Shown here: positions 5,001 through 16,437 of the stretch, piece after piece
Position numbering within the stretch: the first letter of the stretch is position 1
How the letters are laid out: each line of letters begins with the position of its first letter
Source: Desulfocapsa sp.
Lineage (GTDB): Bacteria; Desulfobacterota; Desulfobulbia; Desulfobulbales; Desulfocapsaceae
Direction of reading: 5' to 3'
Length of the DNA: 49,627 bases
NCBI GenBank assembly: GCA_022712895.1
Contig: JAFLJS010000020.1
Span: 1-49,627 of the forward strand
Program-made: the position numbers and the translations under genes
Notes under the pieces: generated by a model
Databases searched by the model: none
Told to the model about the DNA's origin: nothing
What the model saw: only the letters and a program-made list of their open reading frames with translations

Positions 5001-8000
5001 ATGGTAAATGGTGACAGTCAAAAGGAGAGTCTGGAAGCGCTTAAGTTGATTAATGCTGCTTCTACTGCTCTTCGTTTATATCCCGCTGACTCTGCTCAGG
5101 TACGCAACTCTACTGAGAAGGCCTATCTGGGCGTTAAGTCCTTTCTGCGAGAGCACGAACAACTCCGATTTTCTTGCCACAATGGCACCTGTCTCCTGGC
5201 GGGGATTGCGGTGGACAAACCTACCCAGGAACGTTTGCAGCTTCTCACCTTTAATGATTTACTCCAGAAAATGGGTTTGCATGAGCTGGTTTTGACCGGA
5301 ACCTTTGATCTCCTAAAATTTAAAAAAATCCTATCCGTTTTTAGTGTTACTCCAGAACAGATACAGAAGGTTGGTGGCAGCAGGGCATTTATTGAGCAGT
5401 TGCAACTGGGCAATGTGTTCCCTGAAGAATATGTTGCACCTGGTGAAAGCAGGGAAGAGCTGGCTCATAAGCAACGGGTAGATGACGTTCTTAAAGAACT
5501 TGCTGGCAATCAGGTCCATCCTGATGATCTTCATTATCTGTACGGGAAGAAAAAAGGAGACAAGCTTCAGGAGCAGATATCTCACAAATTTCAAACTGCG
5601 GAAGGCGCATCCCATTGCATTGCCGCAGCATGTTATTCCCTGTTACAAATCTTCCAGAAAGAAAAGTCGGTTTCCGTGGCTCCTGCTTTTAGCAACATGC
5701 TTGAACGTGTGGGAATACTGGTGCAGACTGCCGGGAATGACAAACATGATGAGTATGCACTAAAGGCTGCAGTACTTCTTGCCCCGGTACTTGATGACCC
5801 TTCTCTTATGATTCTTATTAGTCAGGAATATCCTGAACGTTTTGGCTCTAGTTTTTATAGCGCGATAATCAAGGCTGTTGACGGGCAGAGTCTTAATAGA
5901 GTGTATAGTTGGATGGTGGTACAGCACGAAAAGAGTGTGTCTTCTTCAGGTGATGGCAGCGTTCAGATGCAGGTTATTGCAAATGCTTATGAACGATTTA
6001 TGAAAACCTCCCGAGCGAAACAGTTACTGGCTGTAAGCAAGGCTCGTGAGTTGCTGACAAAGACCGAGGAGAGCAGGAAAACAAAACGAGTTCAGGTTGG
6101 GATAGAAGCCTTAGCTGCAGGCAATATGGAGGGGCTCAAAAACAGGGAAGTGTGTAACAGTCTGCCTTCTACGATTTATAAACTTTTGAAAAATGATAAA
6201 GAGTCTCTGGCTGCCGCTATTATTCAGAATGTTGTGAATGGGTTACGAAAAGACAGTAATGAGCTCCATTCTTCTTTCGTTCAAGTTGTCGGAGGGGTGG
6301 CCGAGAAACTGGTTCTTCTTAAGCGATGGGATTGGCTTGAAAAATTAACACCAGTCTGTCTTGCCAGAATCCGTGAGACGGAAATTCTGGATTCCAGTTA
6401 TCCGCAATATGTACAGGCGATGCAGGACATGATGAATTATGCCTGGGGTGCTGGCAACAATGACCTTGCCGAAGGTATCCTCGATATTTTTTATTATACT
6501 CGTTCAGGAGCATTCGATAAAGTTGCAGAGTTACAGTCTGTTATCGCAAGTATTCAGGATGAAAATGTTGATCTTGCTCTTTTGCAGGCTTATCTTGATG
6601 AATGTTTTATTCGACCGGTAAATGAGATAATCTGTAAGAAAATTACCATGCAGGGGCCAGTGGCTGCCCGTTTTCTTCTCGATACACTTATCAGCACAGT
6701 TGAACGCTCAGACCGTATTCGTTTGTTGAAATTACTCAGTGAAATTGGGGAAGGGCTTGTTCCTGTTCTGCTTGAGCGTTTTCCAGACCCTATGCCCTGG
6801 TATGGAAAACGAAATATCATCCGTCTTCTTGCTGAAACCGGATCTGAGAAGAATGTGGCTGTTGTGCTGCCGTATATGGTTCATGAAGATCTTCGTGTGC
6901 AGCAGGAAAGTTTGCAGTGTATTGTCCGTTTAGGTAAAGCATCCAAAGGGAAATATCTACTCCAGGTTTTACCCAAAGTCAGTTTGCGTATGAAGATTCT
7001 GGTTGTAAAAAGTCTGGCAAGGGGGGCTGATGAATCTGTAGTCGCTCCCTTAGCTGAGCTCTTGCGAGATTGTAAACTGTATAAAGGAGAGGGGAAAAAA
7101 GTGCTGGCTAAAGAAATTTGTCACACCTTGGCTGCCAGTGGTTCTGGAAAAGCCGTTCCCGTTTTACAGAAAATTGTTGATGCTCCAGAGAAATTATTTG
7201 GAAAAGAGAGTTATGCCGCAGCGAAGAATGCAATCAGTATCCTGAAAGAGTTGAAAAAAGAGCGCCAAAAAACAAAAAAACCACAATCACCTGCTAAAAC
7301 AGTTGCCATAGAACGATCAGAAAAGCCAGAACCAGAGGTCGTTGAAAGTAGTGTCCCCACCGTTACAACAGCTTATAACTCTATCACTGATAGCGAAGAT
7401 GAAGCTGATGTCTATAGGCTCCTTGCCGAAGATAAACTGGAAAGTGCTAAAAAAATACTGCTGTCGCTTATTGAAAAGAGTGCCAATACAAAGCACTTTA
7501 AGAGGGCTGAGGAATTACGTTTACGATTGATTGATATCGACTCCATAGCCCTTGCCGATATTATTAAAGCTGCAGAGTATATAGAAAATGCAAAGACCGA
7601 AGGAGTAGCTAATGATCATATCATTGTCTGGTCTGAACTCTATGATCTGTTAAGCACCGAAGAGTTTAATGAGTTCTATCATGCATTGGTTCATGAAAAT
7701 TATGCTCTTGAAGAAAATATTGTAAACCAGGGTGATCCGCAGTGGCGTCTTTACTTTGTGAATAAGGGACGAGTGAAACTGTATTACCAGGAAAAGGAAA
7801 ATGAAATCCTGGTGAAAACCATCGGTAGTGGTCAGGTGTTTGGTGGTGATTCTTTCTTTAACGATTCCGTGTGGACGCTGAATGCTGCAAGTATGGGTAG
7901 TGTGGAACTTTCTACTCTGGCAGTTGATAATGTTCGGGAGTGGAAGGAAACATACCCCGCACTGGAACCTAAAATTCAGGATTATTGTAAACGTGTGAGT

Positions 8001-8372
8001 ACCGAGCAGGAGTTCTTCCAAAGTTCCGGTGCCAATCGTCGTAATGAGAAGAGGCATTCATTTGATGTTTCTGTGAGTATGGAACTGCTGGCAGAAGATG
8101 GTTCCAGTGAAGGTACTCGTGTTAAAGGTTTTGGCAGTGATATCTCGACGGGAGGTCTTTCTTTTGTTTCACGGATCAGTAGAAGGAAACATGCAAGAAT
8201 GCTCCTGGGCCGTTCCGTAACAATGTATCTTGAACATGACGGAGAAACAATAAAGCTTCAGGGGCGTGTTGTGGCTGTTCGAAATCTTCATTCAGTGGAC
8301 CTTGGTCGTTCAGTGCATATTTCTTTTGATAAAGAACTTACGGAGGCTGCTCTGTTATCCCTGGTTGGCTAA
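5001..8372 (+). CDS. Large HEAT-repeat-like protein with cNMP-binding-fold and PilZ domains
   Basis: A 1123-aa cytoplasmic protein with no signal peptide or membrane segment. Residues about 1-730 are alpha-helical and include HEAT-like repeats around 570-740 (for example VVAPLAELLRD and KAVPVLQKIV). A basic, low-complexity linker follows near 750. Residues about 880-975 resemble a cyclic nucleotide-binding fold, but the cassette FGGDSFFNDSVWTLNA lacks the canonical Arg, so cAMP binding is doubtful. Residues about 1012-1123 form a PilZ domain with both c-di-GMP motifs: RNEKR (RxxxR) and DISTGG (DxSxxG). It is probably a c-di-GMP-responsive scaffold; the partner and output are unknown. The ATPase gene follows by 26 bp, suggesting an operon. 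Confidence 0.85.
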   Translation: MVNGDSQKESLEALKLINAASTALRLYPADSAQVRNSTEKAYLGVKSFLREHEQLRFSCHNGTCLLAGIAVDKPTQERLQLLTFNDLLQKMGLHELVLTGTFDLLKFKKILSVFSVTPEQIQKVGGSRAFIEQLQLGNVFPEEYVAPGESREELAHKQRVDDVLKELAGNQVHPDDLHYLYGKKKGDKLQEQISHKFQTAEGASHCIAAACYSLLQIFQKEKSVSVAPAFSNMLERVGILVQTAGNDKHDEYALKAAVLLAPVLDDPSLMILISQEYPERFGSSFYSAIIKAVDGQSLNRVYSWMVVQHEKSVSSSGDGSVQMQVIANAYERFMKTSRAKQLLAVSKARELLTKTEESRKTKRVQVGIEALAAGNMEGLKNREVCNSLPSTIYKLLKNDKESLAAAIIQNVVNGLRKDSNELHSSFVQVVGGVAEKLVLLKRWDWLEKLTPVCLARIRETEILDSSYPQYVQAMQDMMNYAWGAGNNDLAEGILDIFYYTRSGAFDKVAELQSVIASIQDENVDLALLQAYLDECFIRPVNEIICKKITMQGPVAARFLLDTLISTVERSDRIRLLKLLSEIGEGLVPVLLERFPDPMPWYGKRNIIRLLAETGSEKNVAVVLPYMVHEDLRVQQESLQCIVRLGKASKGKYLLQVLPKVSLRMKILVVKSLARGADESVVAPLAELLRDCKLYKGEGKKVLAKEICHTLAASGSGKAVPVLQKIVDAPEKLFGKESYAAAKNAISILKELKKERQKTKKPQSPAKTVAIERSEKPEPEVVESSVPTVTTAYNSITDSEDEADVYRLLAEDKLESAKKILLSLIEKSANTKHFKRAEELRLRLIDIDSIALADIIKAAEYIENAKTEGVANDHIIVWSELYDLLSTEEFNEFYHALVHENYALEENIVNQGDPQWRLYFVNKGRVKLYYQEKENEILVKTIGSGQVFGGDSFFNDSVWTLNAASMGSVELSTLAVDNVREWKETYPALEPKIQDYCKRVSTEQEFFQSSGANRRNEKRHSFDVSVSMELLAEDGSSEGTRVKGFGSDISTGGLSFVSRISRRKHARMLLGRSVTMYLEHDGETIKLQGRVVAVRNLHSVDLGRSVHISFDKELTEAALLSLVG

Positions 8373-8398
8373 AGGGCGGGCAATTGCTTGAGTCGAAT

Positions 8399-10183
8399 AT
8401 GGAATTTAGCGAAGCAACACTTCAACTGTATCAGCAGCATCTTCCGGGAAGTCGTCTTGTAAATAATCAGCTGCGGGGAGATTGTCCATTTTGCAAAGAA
8501 AAGGGATTTGATGGAACAGATAAATTTCTTGTTTATCTGAATAAGGATGGTTTCTTTTTCGGTTATTTTTGCTGTCTGAATCATTGTGTGCCCGGTGGTT
8601 TTCCGCTTTGGTTTGCAAGGCTTTCCGGAATTGACCCTTCTCATATCCCGGGATTTGATCCTGACCGGGAGATTTTGCTGAAAAATGTAGATTATCCCGC
8701 AAAAAATTTAAATCATGAAATAACTGTTCATACGGCGAGCATGACGGAGAGTCTGCAGGCACGTTTTCAGGACGCGGGCGTACGTAATGATGTGCTTTTA
8801 GACTTGGGGATTGGTTTCAATGGACGTTATCTTGTGTATCCGTATTTTCAGGATGATGGCAACTGTTATGCTGCCCATTGTGTTTTCCCGGATCGCGTAG
8901 AAGATAGTTTCTGGCATGGCAATGAAGATTTTTTTACTGAGCAGCATCGTATTTTTAATGTGCAGGATATTGCCAGATGTGAAAATGGTGCACTCTTTCT
9001 GTGCGTTGGTGAGGAATCCCTTTTGGTGCTGAAAAATCTGGGATATCCCGCTGTGGCAGTACCTGATTTAGCAACTCTTGAAAGTCTGGATCCTGTTCGT
9101 TTTGCTTTTATCAAAACCCTGTTTCTTGTGACATCAAATTCTCAGGAAGCCGATGTCAGTATGAGGGTATTAGCTTCTCGCATGGGCTATAAGGTACGCC
9201 CTTTCAGGTGGCCGGCAGGCCTTGCCAGAGAATATAGTCTCTGGCAAATGGCAAAAGAGAAGGGTGACGGTTTTCGAGCAGCTGTTTCAACAATGATTTC
9301 AACATCCCGTGCTTTCTCTCCGTTTGCCACTCCCAGAAGAGAATATGAGAGCTTCAGGGAACAGCTTACAATGGAGGGTGGCCGTGATTACAGTGCTTTG
9401 CGCTCTGGTTTTCCACTACTTGATGAAGCCTTAGGTGGGATTCATGGTATCAATATCATTGGAGGCGCTCCCAAAACCGGTAAGTCCACCTTTTTGATTC
9501 AGGCTGCCACTGAAATGGCTTTACGGAAGATCCCGGTGCTCTATTACGATTTTGAAAATGGCAGACAAAAAATATATCAACGCAGTCTCTGTCGTCTGAG
9601 TCGTATTGCTGCTGAGAAGATCAGGTCACAAAATTTAACAGCTGATGAAAAAAAACGTTTTGACCTGGCAACGCAAAAAATGCAGAAGATGTTGCAATTT
9701 TTCAGGGTAATAAATGATAGGCAAGTGAACCCGGAAATCATGCGTCGTCATATCGATTTTATTCGTCATGAGACGAACTCACCGTACACTGTTGTGGTGA
9801 TAGACAGTCTGCATAAACTTCCCTTTAAAGATTTCTCGGAACGCAGAACAGGTATTGATGCCTGGTTGCGGCAAATGGAATCCATCCGTGATGAACTTCG
9901 AGTTTCTTTTCTTGTTGTGTCCGAATTATCCAGAGGGGATGGCAGGAGTTACCAGGAAACACCACATCTTGGAGTGTTTAAAGGCTCTGGCGATATTGAG
10001 TATAGTGCGGATAACGCTATGGTGCTCTATCCCGATTGGGACCAGATGGAGACTATGTCAGGTGAAAATCGTAAAAACAGATTGTGGTTGGTTGCCAGTC
10101 GTGAGCATAGTCCGGGGCATGTTGCCGACTATATCGTTGATTATCCATATTGGGGGTTTACTGAGCATTCTCCAGGGGCATAA
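8399..10183 (+). CDS. CHC2-type zinc finger and RecA-like ATPase (primase/helicase-like) protein
   Basis: A protein of about 594 aa. Near residue 28 it has a cysteine cluster (CPFC ... FCCLNHC) resembling the CHC2 zinc finger of DnaG-type primases. The middle (about 90-270) is compatible with a degenerate Toprim-like region, although its catalytic acidic residues were not confirmed. The C-terminal half (about 335-580) is a RecA/RepA-like ATPase with Walker A GGAPKTGKST and Walker B VVVIDSLHKL. This order resembles phage and plasmid primase-helicases, but no replicon or phage genes flank it. The ATG at 8399 has GAG six bases upstream. A TTG at 8384 would add five residues. It lies 26 bp after the PilZ protein gene, so a shared function is possible. 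Confidence 0.75.
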   Translation: MEFSEATLQLYQQHLPGSRLVNNQLRGDCPFCKEKGFDGTDKFLVYLNKDGFFFGYFCCLNHCVPGGFPLWFARLSGIDPSHIPGFDPDREILLKNVDYPAKNLNHEITVHTASMTESLQARFQDAGVRNDVLLDLGIGFNGRYLVYPYFQDDGNCYAAHCVFPDRVEDSFWHGNEDFFTEQHRIFNVQDIARCENGALFLCVGEESLLVLKNLGYPAVAVPDLATLESLDPVRFAFIKTLFLVTSNSQEADVSMRVLASRMGYKVRPFRWPAGLAREYSLWQMAKEKGDGFRAAVSTMISTSRAFSPFATPRREYESFREQLTMEGGRDYSALRSGFPLLDEALGGIHGINIIGGAPKTGKSTFLIQAATEMALRKIPVLYYDFENGRQKIYQRSLCRLSRIAAEKIRSQNLTADEKKRFDLATQKMQKMLQFFRVINDRQVNPEIMRRHIDFIRHETNSPYTVVVIDSLHKLPFKDFSERRTGIDAWLRQMESIRDELRVSFLVVSELSRGDGRSYQETPHLGVFKGSGDIEYSADNAMVLYPDWDQMETMSGENRKNRLWLVASREHSPGHVADYIVDYPYWGFTEHSPGA

Positions 10184-10343: not shown

Positions 10344-11027
10344 ATGAAACTGTTTTCTTCGGCCATGATTGCTGCTGGTTTTCTTGTTTTTACAGTTCAA
10401 AATGTACTGGCATTTGATATACATGGCGGCAATGCCCTTTGGGGAAAATACGCCATACAGACTTGCCGATCGTGTCATACTGAAAAAGGATTGACGTCTC
10501 TTGATCCTCAAGAAAGAAGTGCTGAAGTATGGGAAACGTTTTTTGTAGATGACTACAAGAAATTGCAAGAAATGGATCATGATTTCTCAGCCGTTGGTAT
10601 TAATGATAGGCAGCTGGAGAATATCCATAAGTACCTTGTCGAGACTGCTCCAAAAAGGAGCGGTGGCTCTGCGATTGCCACCAGCCCTAAAAAAACATAT
10701 ACCACTTCTTTGAGGAAATCAAAAGTAGTAACTGGCAAAAGTAGTGGCGGCAAAAAGTTTGATATGGAAGCCGGAAATGCTGGAAAGGGGAGGTATATTT
10801 TCAGGAAATGCCTCGCTTGCCATAAGAAAAATAAAGCACCTGTTATCTCTCCAGCAGACAGAACAAGAAAGGCATGGAGTCGTTTCTTTGACCGTGATTT
10901 TAGAAAGTTTAAGAAATATATGCCAAAGTTTGATACGTATAAGTATTCAACTTCACAGATGGAGCATCTCCATCAGTTTTTTCTGAAATATGCTCTTGAT
11001 GCTGAGAAACCAAAGACTTGTGAATAA
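10344..11027 (+). CDS. Periplasmic diheme c-type cytochrome with tandem-duplicated domain
   Basis: A 227-aa protein with a Sec signal peptide (about residues 1-23, ending VLA) and two CxxCH heme sites: CRSCH at 41-45 and CLACH at 156-160. The two halves are clearly homologous. Both begin G(G/A)NA..G.Y followed by the heme site, and continue with a W...FF.(D)D(Y/F)(K/R)K stretch and a terminal helix containing (I/L)H(K/Q)(Y/F). It is therefore an internal duplication of a small class I-like monoheme unit. GGGAG precedes the ATG at a good distance. It probably shuttles electrons in the periplasm and may serve the neighbouring multiheme protein, which is encoded convergently beyond a strong terminator. 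Confidence 0.85.
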   Translation: MKLFSSAMIAAGFLVFTVQNVLAFDIHGGNALWGKYAIQTCRSCHTEKGLTSLDPQERSAEVWETFFVDDYKKLQEMDHDFSAVGINDRQLENIHKYLVETAPKRSGGSAIATSPKKTYTTSLRKSKVVTGKSSGGKKFDMEAGNAGKGRYIFRKCLACHKKNKAPVISPADRTRKAWSRFFDRDFRKFKKYMPKFDTYKYSTSQMEHLHQFFLKYALDAEKPKTCE

Positions 11028-11258: not shown

Positions 11259-13400
11259 TTAGTCAAATTCAGCCGCCCACTCCGCCCATGAACCATCATG
11301 GGTCTTTACATTCGCATATCCAAGATACTCAAGTACCATATACAATTCTGCCGCCAGCATATTGGTATTACAGGTTGTGATAATAGTTCTACCCGTTGAA
11401 GCATTGCTGATTCCAGCATTGGAAAGTAACCAGGCAAGACGTTTGGTGGAGTATAGTTCACCGTTACTGTTGCGAAGAGTTTGTAGTGGTAAACTAATTG
11501 ATTCCGGAATAGCACCACCTCTTTTGGCGATATCACTTCTCAGCATATCACCCTTGTGCTGTGCTACATTTCGTGTGTCCACCACAATGGCCTGTCCTGC
11601 ACCCATGAGTCTAATGATATCTTGATTATTAACAAGAAGATCCGGTGTGGCGCTGAGAGGATACTTTTTGACTTTAGTTTTAGGTGCCCGGCCTTTGGCA
11701 AGCTTGTATCCTTTCTCCTTCCAGGAATCAATGGTGCCATCAAGAAAAGAAATATTTTTATGGCCGACCATTTGTAGGGCAAGGAAGGCAATACCACGCC
11801 CACTATGACCATCGTCATATATGACTACTCTTTTCTTCGGAGTGAGACCCAGACGCGACCCTCCGAAAATTTTGGCAAGTTCTTCCGCTGTCTGCATCAT
11901 ATAGGGAGGTGTGGACTCTGCAGGTGTCCGAAAGAGACAGAAACAGAGGTGATAGGCCCCGGGAATATGCCCTTTTTCGTACTGTCCTCTGGTTCGTGTG
12001 TCAAGAATGATGATATTGTTATCTTTCTGGTGTTTTTTTAGCCATTCTATTGAAACACGCATGGTTGGATCGGGATGAGTAGGAGAGAGAATAAAGGATC
12101 GCTTCGTCTGCACAGGACCAGGTACATCGGAGGTTTTCAACGCAACATGTCTGTTGATAACGATTTGATCAAATGGCATTGAATCCTGGGTAAGAAAGAG
12201 CTCTTTATTTCCGTGGCAATGGTTGCAGTCTGCACTTTGCCATGTTCGGCGCTGGATGGTGTGGGGGGAGGCTCTCTTGTAAGTTGGTAATGCGGAGTAA
12301 CTTTGCATTTTGCCTATGGTATCTTTAAAAGTGTCTCGCTGTACAGCAACTTCGCGAAGTAGGACAAAACGAGGACCTTCTTTATCAGGATTTAAACCAA
12401 TCTTTAAGTTTTTGTATGAAGGTGATGATTGTGAGTAGACTATTCCGTCTTTGTCAGTTGCAATGTGGCAGGAGTTGCAGTTCTGATATGGTGCCGCATG
12501 ACAAACTGCACACGATACATTTTTATGCAGTACATGTTCAGGGATGGGGCCATTGCTTACATCTGCATGACAGTCAATGCACTTTGCCTTGGCACTGAAA
12601 TGAAATCTGTTGTCTCCCTTTTCTGCCGCGGCATGTAACTCTTCGTTACCATGACAACTGGTACAAGTCATATTGTGTTTGCGATAATGGATATCTCCAC
12701 TCCCTTTTTTACCTATGAAATCATTGCCAGTTGGAGATGTATGACAGGGGAGGCAGTTGTAGACAAAGTCAGGTTTTTTGATGAAAAAATGGCCCCTCTG
12801 TAATCCACCACCAGCGATGTCAGGCCTACTCACATGGCATGAACCACAACTGCCCTGGTGGCAAATAAGGCACTGTTTATCGAGGATTGAGTCTTTAAGT
12901 TTTGAAAGCTGGTCGGTTGAGCATCTTTTCTCAAGGGTGGCGTAGAGTGGGCTTGGATTCATATGCAGAGAGTTGCTTCCGCTAGTGCTGATATCGGAAT
13001 GACACTGTCCGCATGTGGTTTCACTGGTAAGACTGGGATCACTCACTAAGCCTTTATGGGCAAGTGCAGGGTCATTACTGTCAGGGTTGCCATTGTGGCA
13101 GAGATGGCAGGGAATCTGTCCATGGGTGGATTGTAGAAAGTCTTCATCAACAAGCATCTTTTCATAGAGGTCAAAAGGTGCTTTTTCCACTCCGTAACCT
13201 TTGCCGTGTTGCATGGAAGATATCTCGTCATCATCTTCACCAAACATTATAGCTTCTTCGGTAAGCTCATCCATTAGGTCGTCATCGGTATGACAGATGG
13301 CGCATTGGGTAAGTTCGGCAGCTGTCAGAGGTGGAAGAGCGAGTGCTGTCAGCAGGGTAAGTGCCGAACAAAATAGCACGGAAGTTTTGGTAGAGAACAT
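11259..13400 (-). CDS. 11-heme c-type cytochrome fused to tandem rhodanese domains
   Basis: A 713-aa exported protein. A signal peptide occupies about residues 1-28 (ending LTAAE). Eleven CxxCH sites lie at 33, 98, 130, 177, 185, 216, 246, 274, 297, 308 and 392. Two rhodanese-like domains follow. The first (about 445-570) has Asp in place of the catalytic Cys (VIYDDGHSGRG). The second (about 595-713) keeps it at Cys677 (IITTCNTN), the same inactive/active arrangement as two-domain thiosulfate sulfurtransferases. An upstream TTG (13412) is in frame, but the ATG at 13400 has GGAG seven bases before it and is preferred. The role is probably periplasmic electron transfer coupled to sulfane-sulfur handling; this is an inference. 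The DUF3373-like porin gene is immediately upstream on the same strand. Confidence 0.9.
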   Translation of the reverse strand: MFSTKTSVLFCSALTLLTALALPPLTAAELTQCAICHTDDDLMDELTEEAIMFGEDDDEISSMQHGKGYGVEKAPFDLYEKMLVDEDFLQSTHGQIPCHLCHNGNPDSNDPALAHKGLVSDPSLTSETTCGQCHSDISTSGSNSLHMNPSPLYATLEKRCSTDQLSKLKDSILDKQCLICHQGSCGSCHVSRPDIAGGGLQRGHFFIKKPDFVYNCLPCHTSPTGNDFIGKKGSGDIHYRKHNMTCTSCHGNEELHAAAEKGDNRFHFSAKAKCIDCHADVSNGPIPEHVLHKNVSCAVCHAAPYQNCNSCHIATDKDGIVYSQSSPSYKNLKIGLNPDKEGPRFVLLREVAVQRDTFKDTIGKMQSYSALPTYKRASPHTIQRRTWQSADCNHCHGNKELFLTQDSMPFDQIVINRHVALKTSDVPGPVQTKRSFILSPTHPDPTMRVSIEWLKKHQKDNNIIILDTRTRGQYEKGHIPGAYHLCFCLFRTPAESTPPYMMQTAEELAKIFGGSRLGLTPKKRVVIYDDGHSGRGIAFLALQMVGHKNISFLDGTIDSWKEKGYKLAKGRAPKTKVKKYPLSATPDLLVNNQDIIRLMGAGQAIVVDTRNVAQHKGDMLRSDIAKRGGAIPESISLPLQTLRNSNGELYSTKRLAWLLSNAGISNASTGRTIITTCNTNMLAAELYMVLEYLGYANVKTHDGSWAEWAAEFD

Positions 13401-13437
13401 AGATATCTCCAACTAAGTGTTATGATATATAGTATGG

Positions 13438-13480
13438 GGAAAAAAAAGAGGCAGATCGAAAAAATCGATCGGCCTCTTCT
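13438..13480 (-). terminator. Intrinsic terminator between porin and cytochrome-rhodanese genes
   Basis: On the minus strand a 14-bp stem (13465-13478 with 13446-13459, one mismatch) is followed by eight T residues (13447-13440). It lies just after the porin stop codon and 38 bases before the cytochrome ATG. It should limit, but not necessarily block, read-through from the porin gene into the cytochrome gene, allowing different expression levels. Confidence 0.8.
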
Positions 13481-13509
13481 GTTGCTGAATTGCTTAAACC
13501 AACTGTCTT

Positions 13510-15246
13510 TTACCAGCGATATACAAGATTCATGTAATAATTCCACATGGTATCAGTAACAGGTAGGAAGGAGTCAAGGGCGTTAAGATCTGAAATTTTT
13601 ACTGGGGCTCCCATGGGGTTTCCACTTCCTGAGTAAGCATAATCGTAGTATTGCGCACCCATGGAAAGGGTCAGCCTATTTCCAACCAGTGGATGGTTGT
13701 AAAAGAGTTCATATACTGAACCGCGAGTAGCAAGTTTTGATCCAGCGGGATTGTCTTCTCCACCGGTGAAGGAGATCCAATATTTTGAACCGTAGTTATA
13801 TTCAAATCCTATGCTAGCCGTCCAGGGGAGTTCGGTCTTGACACCACCCCAGAAAGAGTAACCCGTTCGGTTATGCTGTTCGCCATTGGAATTCAGTAAA
13901 CCGTCGGTTCCTAGAAACTGCATCATAGGGTTTGCAGAGATGCCGGATGGTTTTGCGTAGCTGAGTGCAAAGTCTCCAAAGAAACTAACATCTCCAACGG
14001 TGGTCTGGCCAAGTAATGTTACGATATCAATGGAACCGATGTTGGCTGTTGGCTCTGTACGACTGATATATGCTCCGTCATTGAGACTCATCTGGAACTG
14101 ATCATAGCTGCCGTCGTTGTCCATATCAAATCCGTTCAGCGTAAAGGGCTGAACCACAAGGCCGGTGAAACCGTCAGTTACGTTGGATGCATGAGCAAAC
14201 ATATGAGCAACTTTTGTTGTCTCATCTTCATAGATGTTGGCTACCCACCCTGCAAATTGCATATCATCAACGTCTGAGTTGTAGGACATGGAATAGGAAT
14301 TACCGGATCCAACGCCAGATTCAAAGCCAACTCCCCAGCACAGTTTGAAGTTTGCACCGGGAACGCCGGTTACTTCATCAAGGTTAAAGCCAAGGGATGC
14401 ACCGTCAAACTGCCAGTTGATACCGTGAGCCATGGGAGATCCTCCAACCATACTGGAGGTACTGAATTCTGATGGAGTACCACCAAGGGCAGGGCGTCGT
14501 CCTAAAGAAAAGTGGTAGCCTACATCACCCATATCACCAAAATAAGTGAAAAATGCACGTTCTACCCGCAGGGCTGAGTCACTGCCCGTGGAGTGCACAT
14601 TGCCATCCATGGTAACCGCGTTGGGGCCACCATTGTACCATTTGACTCCCGTGGAATCACCAAATATTTTAGCGGCAGAGAGGCGACCGACAAATGAAAG
14701 ATTTCGTGTTGGTTTGCCTTTGAGGTCCAGGCGAAGACGACTGGTAAAGAGGGTGTCGTTGCTGATGGATTGCTTTTCAACGCCCTGCTGTCTGAACATG
14801 GCCTTGTACTGTTCCATTTCGGCTGCAGAAAACTGGGAACCAGCAACGGCCATCTGGCTGATCTGGATCTGAGTAGCCATGGGCATGGTTTTTACTTTCA
14901 TATGGATGGAATTCACCTGGGTTTCCAGTTCAACACCTATTGTTACCCGGTCAAGTGCGGTGTGTTTTTCTGCATCACCAACCCGTTCATCAATTTCATC
15001 AACTACATCCATTACCTCAGCAACCTGAGCGTCTTGTTCTTCTTTCATTTCAAAACTCATCTGCAGCATCTCTTCTGCTGAAATGAGACGATCGTTGAGA
15101 TCCATAACTATATTTTTCAACATTTCAATTTCATTGATAAGATCTTGCTGCGAAAGTGTTGTCTGGCCACCGAAAGCTGCGCCTACTAAGAGCTGTGTAG
15201 ACAACAGGGCGCCGGTCAGCCCGATCATTGTATAACGCTTTATCAT
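13510..15246 (-). CDS. DUF3373-like outer-membrane beta-barrel porin
   Basis: A 578-aa protein with a signal peptide (about 1-26, AAFG) and a periplasmic coiled coil (about 30-105, including EIEMLKNIVMDLNDRL). From about residue 155 there are alternating amphipathic strands typical of a large barrel, ending in a C-terminal Trp (LVYRW), the usual BAM recognition feature. The sequence resembles DUF3373 proteins, which in metal- and sulfur-reducing Desulfobacterota are often encoded next to multiheme cytochromes and are thought to house them across the outer membrane. Here the next gene downstream encodes an 11-heme cytochrome. A porin-cytochrome conduit is therefore likely, but not demonstrated by sequence alone. 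Confidence 0.8.
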   Translation of the reverse strand: MIKRYTMIGLTGALLSTQLLVGAAFGGQTTLSQQDLINEIEMLKNIVMDLNDRLISAEEMLQMSFEMKEEQDAQVAEVMDVVDEIDERVGDAEKHTALDRVTIGVELETQVNSIHMKVKTMPMATQIQISQMAVAGSQFSAAEMEQYKAMFRQQGVEKQSISNDTLFTSRLRLDLKGKPTRNLSFVGRLSAAKIFGDSTGVKWYNGGPNAVTMDGNVHSTGSDSALRVERAFFTYFGDMGDVGYHFSLGRRPALGGTPSEFSTSSMVGGSPMAHGINWQFDGASLGFNLDEVTGVPGANFKLCWGVGFESGVGSGNSYSMSYNSDVDDMQFAGWVANIYEDETTKVAHMFAHASNVTDGFTGLVVQPFTLNGFDMDNDGSYDQFQMSLNDGAYISRTEPTANIGSIDIVTLLGQTTVGDVSFFGDFALSYAKPSGISANPMMQFLGTDGLLNSNGEQHNRTGYSFWGGVKTELPWTASIGFEYNYGSKYWISFTGGEDNPAGSKLATRGSVYELFYNHPLVGNRLTLSMGAQYYDYAYSGSGNPMGAPVKISDLNALDSFLPVTDTMWNYYMNLVYRW

Positions 15247-15531: not shown

Positions 15532-16437
15532 ATGGGGATACGATCAAAATTTATTATTATTATTACGGTACTGAGCCTTCTAGCCACCATTGTTATTGGG
15601 TATACCAGTTACATGTTGAGTCGGCAGAGTGCCATTGCCGAAGCGAAAAGCAAGGGTGAGATTATCTATAATTATATCGAAGCCAGTGCTAAATTCTTTG
15701 GTAAATATCAGTATCCATTGATAATGGAAGACAATATGGATAAAGACAGGTTTGTTCCTGAACTGATGTCCAAATTTGTTGTTAGTCGTATGGAGTTTGA
15801 GATTTTTCAAGAGACTCTTGAAGGTTACCTGTTTAAGCAGGCGACTCTAGATCCTCTCTGGCCAGATAATAAAGCTAATAGTGATGAACAGAAAGTGATC
15901 GCATACTTTGAGGCTAACCCTGAATCAATGGAGCAACAGGGTGTCATGGAGAAGAATGGGGAGAATTTCTTTTACACTGCACGGCCCATCCGTATTGAAA
16001 AGGCTTTTTGTCTGACTTGTCACGGAGATCCAGCGGATGCTCCTGGTGATCAGCGGGATATTTACGGTACAGAGGATGGCTATAACTGGAGCATGGGCGA
16101 AACCGTAGGAACTTCTATTGTCTATATTTCAATTGCTAAAGCAATGGACGATGCAAAACAGTCTGCGCTGAAGATTTTCACCGTTGGTATTGTCTGTTTA
16201 CTGGTGACCATCATCTGTATCTGGGTATTCCTTGATCGTTCTGTTGTTGCCCCTATTATTCAACTATCCAGTTCTGCCAAGGATATCAGTATTGGCAAAA
16301 ACCTCTGTGATTCTATCCATACAGACTCCAATGATGAAATTGGTGGATTGGCTAACTCCATTGATCGTATGCGAATCAGTGTGAATAAATTATTGAAACG
16401 AACGTGCCCTGACGCAAAAAAACGAAAAAAGAAGTAA
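15532..16437 (+). CDS. Membrane c-heme sensor protein (DUF3365/Tll0287-like) with HAMP
   Basis: A 301-aa protein with a first membrane segment at about 7-27, an extracytoplasmic domain at about 30-210 resembling the DUF3365 (Tll0287-like) heme-binding sensor fold with one CLTCH heme site near residue 162, a second membrane segment at about 218-238, and a HAMP-like segment at about 240-290. It ends with a basic tail (KKRKKK) and has no histidine kinase, methyl-accepting, GGDEF or PAS domain. This is unusual for the architecture and suggests loss of, or separation from, an output domain. A strong ribosome-binding site (AAGGAGGAG) precedes the ATG. Divergent from the porin gene, it may sense periplasmic redox state or a small ligand. 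Confidence 0.8.
   Translation: MGIRSKFIIIITVLSLLATIVIGYTSYMLSRQSAIAEAKSKGEIIYNYIEASAKFFGKYQYPLIMEDNMDKDRFVPELMSKFVVSRMEFEIFQETLEGYLFKQATLDPLWPDNKANSDEQKVIAYFEANPESMEQQGVMEKNGENFFYTARPIRIEKAFCLTCHGDPADAPGDQRDIYGTEDGYNWSMGETVGTSIVYISIAKAMDDAKQSALKIFTVGIVCLLVTIICIWVFLDRSVVAPIIQLSSSAKDISIGKNLCDSIHTDSNDEIGGLANSIDRMRISVNKLLKRTCPDAKKRKKK

Follow-up and report, generated by a model that had tools for sequence, protein, structure and literature searches.

In Geobacter, a rhodanese-like protein, an outer-membrane porin and a predicted selenocysteine-containing c-type cytochrome are encoded together in the ExtHIJKL(MNOPQS) system, in which ExtH is a separate lipoprotein and ExtKL carries five hemes, according to the portions of PMC6148476 and PMC5877670 available to us. 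A pairing of genes for a multiheme cytochrome and an outer-membrane barrel is also characteristic of the porin-cytochrome complexes of the MtrCAB and OmcB type, and tandem rhodaneses with the cysteine in the second domain are common among the thiosulfate and 3-mercaptopyruvate sulfurtransferases (SseA; NF008557; PDB 1urh, 1uar). In Desulfurivibrio dismutans, the porin RS05170 is encoded beside periplasmic sulfurtransferases and YeeE/YedE and was proposed to help polysulfide import (PMC12142623, available part). Here, a gene encoding an 11-heme c-type cytochrome fused to a tandem rhodanese, located directly downstream of a DUF3373 porin gene, was analyzed in a stretch of 49,627 nucleotides from Desulfocapsa sp. 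(contig JAFLJS010000020.1), in the following called the window. On the basis of comparative sequence data, we lean towards the fusion being a sulfane-sulfur redox enzyme of the periplasm, with a porin for sulfur compounds encoded next to it.

The locus differs from each of the described systems. Its porin belongs to DUF3373, and the proteins stay far below the cut-offs of the ExtH, ExtM and ExtN models (ExtH 38.1 of 200 bits); no ExtKL match was found among those listed, and NF040886 reaches 32.9 of 250 bits in the genome of the window. Compared with the MtrCAB and OmcB type, the barrel is of another family and has no neighboring gene for an outer-surface multiheme lipoprotein, a hairpin lies between the two genes, and the barrel is kept elsewhere without the cytochrome. 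The octaheme cytochromes of the tetrathionate reductase family (TIGR04315), of which a selenocysteine (Sec) member is listed in PMC13188914, show weak local similarity over the middle hemes, but they have eight hemes instead of eleven, and the scores are at most 32.4 bits with a cut-off of 375. The available text of PMC12142623 mentions no cytochrome fusion; RS05170 is compared by its setting and not by DUF3373 membership. A description of the fusion was not found in a literature search covering few subscription papers and no preprints. This agrees with a preliminary description of the locus, which had named no known system with this fusion, although ExtHIJKL already joins a rhodanese, a porin and a putative selenocytochrome. 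The following features of the fusion gene were assigned:

11259..13400, minus strand: 11-heme c-type cytochrome / tandem rhodanese fusion gene, 713 amino acids from ATG; the open reading frame extends to TTG at 13412
12213..13304, minus strand: 11-heme region from the first to the last CxxCH (residues 33-396), whose profile reaches relatives throughout the phylum
13194..13196, minus strand: codon of Tyr69; most relatives have an in-frame TGA (selenocysteine) here, and locus L177 has Cys
11712..12050, minus strand: rhodanese domain 1 (Pfam), no catalytic Cys in the loop
11937..11945, minus strand: CxC motif (Cys486, Cys488), found solely in the porin-linked clade
11268..11624, minus strand: rhodanese domain 2, SseA/TST-like (Pfam, NCBIfam and PDB sequence matches)
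11370..11372, minus strand: codon of Cys677 in the active-site loop CNTNMLA (sequence, alignment)

The preliminary description covered the two genes, with the stop codon of the cytochrome at one end of its span and the porin start codon at the other; both lie on the minus strand with the porin upstream. For the fusion, the ATG at 13400, preceded by GGAG, was judged the better start than the TTG at 13412. CxxCH sites are located at residues 33, 98, 130, 177, 185, 216, 246, 274, 297, 308, and 392, whereas 2000 shuffles of the first 430 residues gave a mean of 0.08 and a maximum of 2. A signal peptide, but no lipobox, was recognized by eye, and the exported chain with eleven heme sites noted previously is confirmed. 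Pfam assigns two Rhodanese stretches (whole-protein E 4.9e-31, best 451-563) as well as Cytochrome_C7. At the place expected for the catalytic cysteine loop, the first rhodanese domain reads YDDGHSG and the second TCNTNMLA, as had been proposed with one degenerate and one Cys677-bearing domain. Cys677 is invariant in all 17 aligned fusions, and the second domain thereby carries the catalytic cysteine of active tandem rhodaneses of the thiosulfate and 3-mercaptopyruvate sulfurtransferase (TST/MST) type. The tandem rhodanese part most resembles sulfurtransferases of the SseA type (NF008557, 112.9 bits with a cut-off of 250; PDB 1urh, E 5.2e-22), from which the fusion differs by its export, the eleven attached hemes and the loop CNTNMLA. 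The predicted structure has a mean pLDDT (predicted local distance difference test) of 41, with up to 84 in the rhodanese part (10-residue means) and mostly below 40 in the heme part. A PDB sequence search with the 11-heme profile gave marginal matches (best E 2.3e-5, no single stretch passing; NrfA E 2.4e-4), and a plasmid search found partial matches below 60% identity in 253 records, none of them covering 80% of the query.

With the 11-heme profile (A2), 395 genomes sampled evenly across the phylum were searched; 65 of them match at E 1e-15, and the weaker of these matches span only part of the profile. In total, 51 loci were examined, namely every one of the 50 matches beyond the genus with E below 1e-60 and in addition L177, and the domain was located in all of them; G426:C28, which is in two pieces, and A2 matches weaker than 1e-60 were left out. 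In 48 of the 51 loci, the 11-heme cytochrome has a same-strand rhodanese as an adjacent or fused partner. As the contigs of L175 and L179 end 87 and 182 bases past the cytochrome, this corresponds to 48 of 49 informative loci, with L164 as the sole informative exception, in which no adjoining rhodanese was found. Forty of the coupled loci were assigned by rule, L147, L185, and L194 by longer frames directly downstream, L196 by a gene directly upstream, L156 and L157 by Pfam, and L162 and L177 are fusions. For comparison, the window's own genome contains 15 rhodanese matches in 3.68 Mb. The rhodanese type differs by locus (single, tandem or double tandem), and many of the downstream frames start with signal-peptide-like N-termini, as judged by eye. 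Because of this coupling the cytochrome is likely to handle sulfane sulfur, and the corresponding suggestion of the preliminary description has gained strong genetic support.

Eleven motif histidines and nine other histidines (93, 115, 146, 204, 238, 256, 289, 292, and 380) recur in at least 82 of 83 aligned sequences, and conservation of Met244 and Tyr305 is 90% or more; L163, L164, and L181 contain 10 strict CxxCH motifs. The window protein shares the family's characteristics, with the eleven heme-motif histidines in register, the nine further ones and a coupled rhodanese. Since eleven motif histidines face nine others, two hemes are left without a conserved distal histidine candidate, which leaves room for residue 69 to ligate, or face, one of them. 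NCBIfam gave nothing above cut-off for three of the TGA-containing cytochromes read through the TGA. We assign the protein, as a member in fused form, to a family that we could not match to any name, and it is new to the literature searched.

In the split loci L168, L174, L176, L182, L185, L192, and L194, one or two further proteins with 7-9 CxxCH motifs and approximately 610-760 amino acids are encoded after the cytochrome and the rhodanese, and several of these loci also contain a second rhodanese of approximately 245 amino acids. The last multiheme protein of L182 has a weak cytochrome b561-like part, for which reason a membrane complex may be encoded.

A single in-frame TGA was found at one fixed site between heme 1 and heme 2 in 49 of the 51 loci, mostly within GxG-TGA-(A/G)G or AG-TGA-GV. 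The exceptions are L177, which has Cys at the site, and L162, which is cut by the contig end; the window protein, with Tyr69, is a Sec-less member. Downstream of the TGA a SECIS-like hairpin can be formed, which in a first and larger group of 27 distinct sequences shows covariation, spans nucleotides 13-31 (the T of TGA being 1), starts 9 nucleotides after the TGA and has the loop GUU. Of its cells 92.6% are paired, compared with 37-48% in slid controls, and 16 cells are changed on both sides, a value reached by none of 500 shuffles. A second group comprises 22 of 23 sequences, L195 being left out as its site is shifted in the alignment, and 8 of the 59 TGA sequences belong to neither group. 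Furthermore, selB was found above cut-off in 12 of 13 genomes, including that of the window, and none of four loci scanned with Rfam matched at the gathering threshold. Taken as sequence evidence, the in-frame TGA, the hairpin and selB indicate that the 11-heme family is probably a selenoprotein family. It does not appear by name in Table 1 of PMC13188914, the part of that paper considered here, which comprises 119 selenoprotein families and subfamilies including ExtKL and an octaheme TIGR04315 entry; its "hypothetical" entries might cover it. The main texts of PMC12013277 and PMC5029168 contain no word starting with "cytochrome". An identity of the TGA family with ExtKL was dropped, as NF040886 finds separate genes in genomes G063 and G068 and is absent from the listed matches of the proteins described here.

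Close relatives were surveyed in 93 genomes of the same family, 20 of them from the genus, including the window's own. Nine other genomes contain a relative 61-81% identical to the window fusion, truncated in G015 by a contig end, and in all nine the DUF3373 gene precedes it in the same orientation. Four of the seven full-length relatives in named genomes come from metagenome-assembled genomes labelled Desulfocapsa, and three carry broader labels. Eight genomes of other genera encode a full-length fusion at 37-39% identity, with no DUF3373 in the sequence read; heme 1 is followed in each case by a single in-frame TGA. Seven of these eight fusions have a 5-heme gene next to them, of which the one that was scanned is NapC/NrfH-like. 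When the whole fusion was searched in 242 genomes of the order, matches were found in 45, among them fusions in several families. In a FastTree phylogeny of 83 sequences, whose support values are local and not bootstrap values, all 31 fusions form one clade (0.996), which splits into 20 Sec fusions (0.999; including G014, cut early in the rhodanese) and 11 Sec-less fusions, here called type II (1.0). At the Sec site, type II has Tyr in ten sequences, including the window, and Cys in L177. All 11 type II fusions contain the CxC motif in the first rhodanese domain (10 by regular expression, DL014 from the printed row), and the motif is absent from every other alignment row whose region was printed. 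Genome G496 holds both types, L219 and L227, the latter with 491 bases of upstream sequence. In the Sec fusions L018, L020, and L024, a Cys (VYCD) lies near the loop of the first rhodanese, which the window protein does not have.

The surroundings of the fusion gene comprise the following features:

13440..13477, minus strand: terminator-like hairpin and T tract between porin and fusion, approximately 40 bases before the fusion ATG, with counterparts in 10 of the 11 remaining porin-linked loci
13510..15246, minus strand: DUF3373 outer-membrane barrel protein of 578 amino acids with an N-terminal coiled-coil-like stretch (Pfam E 5.7e-113)
15532..16437, plus strand: divergent Tll0287-like and HAMP protein with one CxxCH, kept beside the porin with and without the fusion
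10344..11027, plus strand: diheme cytochrome, convergent to the fusion and kept both beside the fusion and beside the fusion-less porin locus

DUF3373 (PF11853) is the sole Pfam family above cut-off in the porin, with 378.5 bits at a gathering score of 26.1, as the preliminary description had proposed for this barrel. No NCBIfam conduit model matched it, so that it is not assigned to the conduit-family barrels (MtrB/PioB, OmbB), and its predicted model has a pLDDT of 28. The DUF3373 gene is located directly upstream of the fusion in all 12 type II loci (window, L047-L054, the cut L062, L177, and L219), which belong to three families. The 19 Sec fusion loci read showed no such gene; their upstream sequence amounts to at least 850 bases in 13 cases and to less than 500 bases in the other six, which are hardly informative on a porin. 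The adjacency that had been put up for testing holds for the Sec-less fusions and was not seen in the Sec fusions read. The type II porins form a clade of their own (0.999), which mirrors the cytochrome clade.

Between porin and fusion, a hairpin is followed by T in 11 of the 12 type II loci. Seven hairpins were flagged by script with at least 12 pairs, that of the window weakly, and those of L047, L048, and L049 were assigned by sequence and folding; the T tract is weak in L051, and L219 has a hairpin without T tract. The hairpin was dropped as proof of separate transcription, since read-through is possible and the fusion start codon follows after approximately 40 bases in the window.

The porin subfamily (profile A3, E 1e-100) was found in 25 of the 242 genomes of the order. 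The fusion adjoins it in 11 of these (nine of the window's genus as well as G104 and G496), and 14 have no adjacent fusion. Ten genomes of the sister genus contain the porin and the Tll0287-like gene at the same place with no fusion there, nine of them with the diheme cytochrome. In the porin's closest relatives outside this group (L108, L255, L256, and L257), a YeeE/YedE-type gene lies directly downstream in all four cases, as assigned by Pfam Sulf_transp in L108 and by similarity to the L108 gene in the other three, and in three of the four a monoheme cytochrome follows. These loci are candidate sulfur-uptake operons in their own right. Among 20 selected loci of other DUF3373 copies, a direct multiheme neighbor was found only in L105, which is the type II locus L177; L104 and L113 reach a contig edge on one side, and some of the loci contain monoheme genes.

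Because its nearest outside relatives adjoin YeeE/YedE-type genes, the barrel is regarded as a putative sulfur-compound porin, and together with the rhodanese coupling this leads to the reading of the fusion we prefer. A sulfur compound would most likely be admitted through the DUF3373 barrel, which would not be needed as an electron conduit. Cys677 of the rhodanese would accept sulfane sulfur as a persulfide, from thiosulfate, polysulfide or a persulfide, and the cytochrome site (Sec69, here Tyr69, perhaps with the CxC dithiol) would reduce the persulfide to sulfide or oxidize it. The remaining hemes would wire this site to periplasmic carriers, which in turn would link it with the respiratory chain. 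Either direction of electron flow would be compatible with sulfur and thiosulfate disproportionation, known from Desulfocapsa.

Several points weigh against this reading or against the selenoprotein assignment on which it draws. The CNTNMLA loop is unlike the usual rhodanese loops, so that sulfurtransferase activity is not assured. The putative redox-centre Sec is Tyr in the window, and the window protein may thus differ in function from its family. The first-group hairpin has four doubly changed pairs, a number reached by 56 of 500 shuffles, while its other measures were reached by none; the second group is 93.9% paired without covariation exceeding that of shuffles, its doubly changed cells being reached by 83 of 500 shuffles, and these shuffle controls ignore relatedness. 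The mean folding z of the 48-nucleotide stretch is just -0.82 (59 loci, mononucleotide shuffles), with 26 of the 59 below -1. Finally, SseA-type rhodaneses are generally without a link to disproportionation, as stated in the available part of PMC12998232.

The preliminary description had favored a conduit, in which the cytochrome would plug the DUF3373 barrel, electrons would cross to extracellular sulfur or minerals and the rhodanese would bind sulfur at the surface, similar to ExtHI of Geobacter. The constant adjacency of the porin in the Sec-less loci, its tree mirroring that of the cytochrome, and the ExtHIJKL precedent fit this idea, yet we consider it improbable, since a terminator-like hairpin separates the genes in nearly all type II loci, the porin is kept without the fusion in the sister genus, its closest relatives have YeeE/YedE neighbors and the other DUF3373 loci lack multiheme neighbors. 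Furthermore, more than half of the genomes with the porin subfamily have no adjacent fusion, and neither a lipobox in the fusion nor a surface multiheme protein encoded beside the porin was recognized. Known conduit barrels are wider than 18 strands. In the porin-family table of PMC4827864, DUF3373 is listed within a family given 18 strands, which was likewise counted against a conduit. The supposed association of DUF3373 with electron conduits is not borne out by the 19 other selected loci, in which no direct multiheme neighbor was found.

A periplasmic role outside energy metabolism, in which sulfur compounds are detoxified or protein persulfides repaired and polysulfide or selenium and tellurium oxyanions are cleared with electrons of the cytochrome, appears unlikely, if less so than the conduit. 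It is suggested by the impaired selenite and tellurite reduction after loss of the Geobacter porin ExtI (PMC6148476, PMC5877670, available parts), by the weak similarity to the ExtM and ExtN cytochromes and by the phylum-wide occurrence of the module, which is broader than expected from disproportionators alone. However, the 11-heme family is not ExtKL, whose model identifies separate genes where both were compared, and no conserved stress-type gene was seen in the neighborhoods listed. Least probable, and in our opinion quite doubtful, is that the two halves of the fusion have no redox partnership and share only their regulation, with the rhodanese serving, e.g., cofactor or cytochrome maturation. 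The halves of a fusion can be functionally loose and the rhodanese type varies between loci, but an adjacency found in all informative loci except one across deeply divergent sequences, and a fusion kept for long in two descendant clades, argue for a common function.

Desulfocapsa sulfexigens lives from the disproportionation of sulfur compounds (PMC3739170), the first enzymatic steps of which are called unresolved (PMC3739170, PMC8780430, PMC12998232; available parts of each). The pairing of a multiheme cytochrome with a sulfurtransferase throughout the phylum is a concrete candidate for these steps. More tentatively, the Sec family may comprise undescribed selenoenzymes, in which a catalytic Sec at one heme and an exported rhodanese act phylum-wide as a persulfide/polysulfide oxidoreductase; in one lineage of the Desulfobulbales they would have been joined into one Sec-less protein with a CxC dithiol relay and a dedicated sulfur porin, which would be a candidate for the first step still missing in the disproportionation of elemental sulfur. 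Through the in-frame TGA, the 2026 inventory of 119 prokaryotic selenoprotein families (PMC13188914) would gain a cytochrome family that its table does not name, and the natural Sec, Cys, and Tyr versions allow a direct test of what selenium does at the site. For UWK_00046, which is among nine rhodaneses listed for D. sulfexigens, no identity with this gene is claimed. Membership in the family is likewise not claimed for GF1_13980, a D. dissulfuricans rhodanese detected solely under thiosulfate disproportionation, as its tag was not matched with the locus in G548.

The Tll0287-like/HAMP gene is located beyond the porin in eight of the nine close relatives (cut in L062), the contig ending first in L054, and it is divergent from the porin in all 18 other loci of two genera whose contigs reach that far. 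The protein has no recognized output domain, and it may be a heme redox sensor that lacks a kinase. Upstream of the porin, L177 (1-1887) and L219 (11017-12870) contain a gene for a chemoreceptor with a CZB zinc-binding domain. Further genes in the window include a 1123-amino-acid protein with HEAT repeats, a cyclic-nucleotide-binding domain and PilZ (5001-8372) and a protein with the C-terminal domain of a DnaB-type helicase (8384-10183), both of which are syntenic in the genus where contigs reach.

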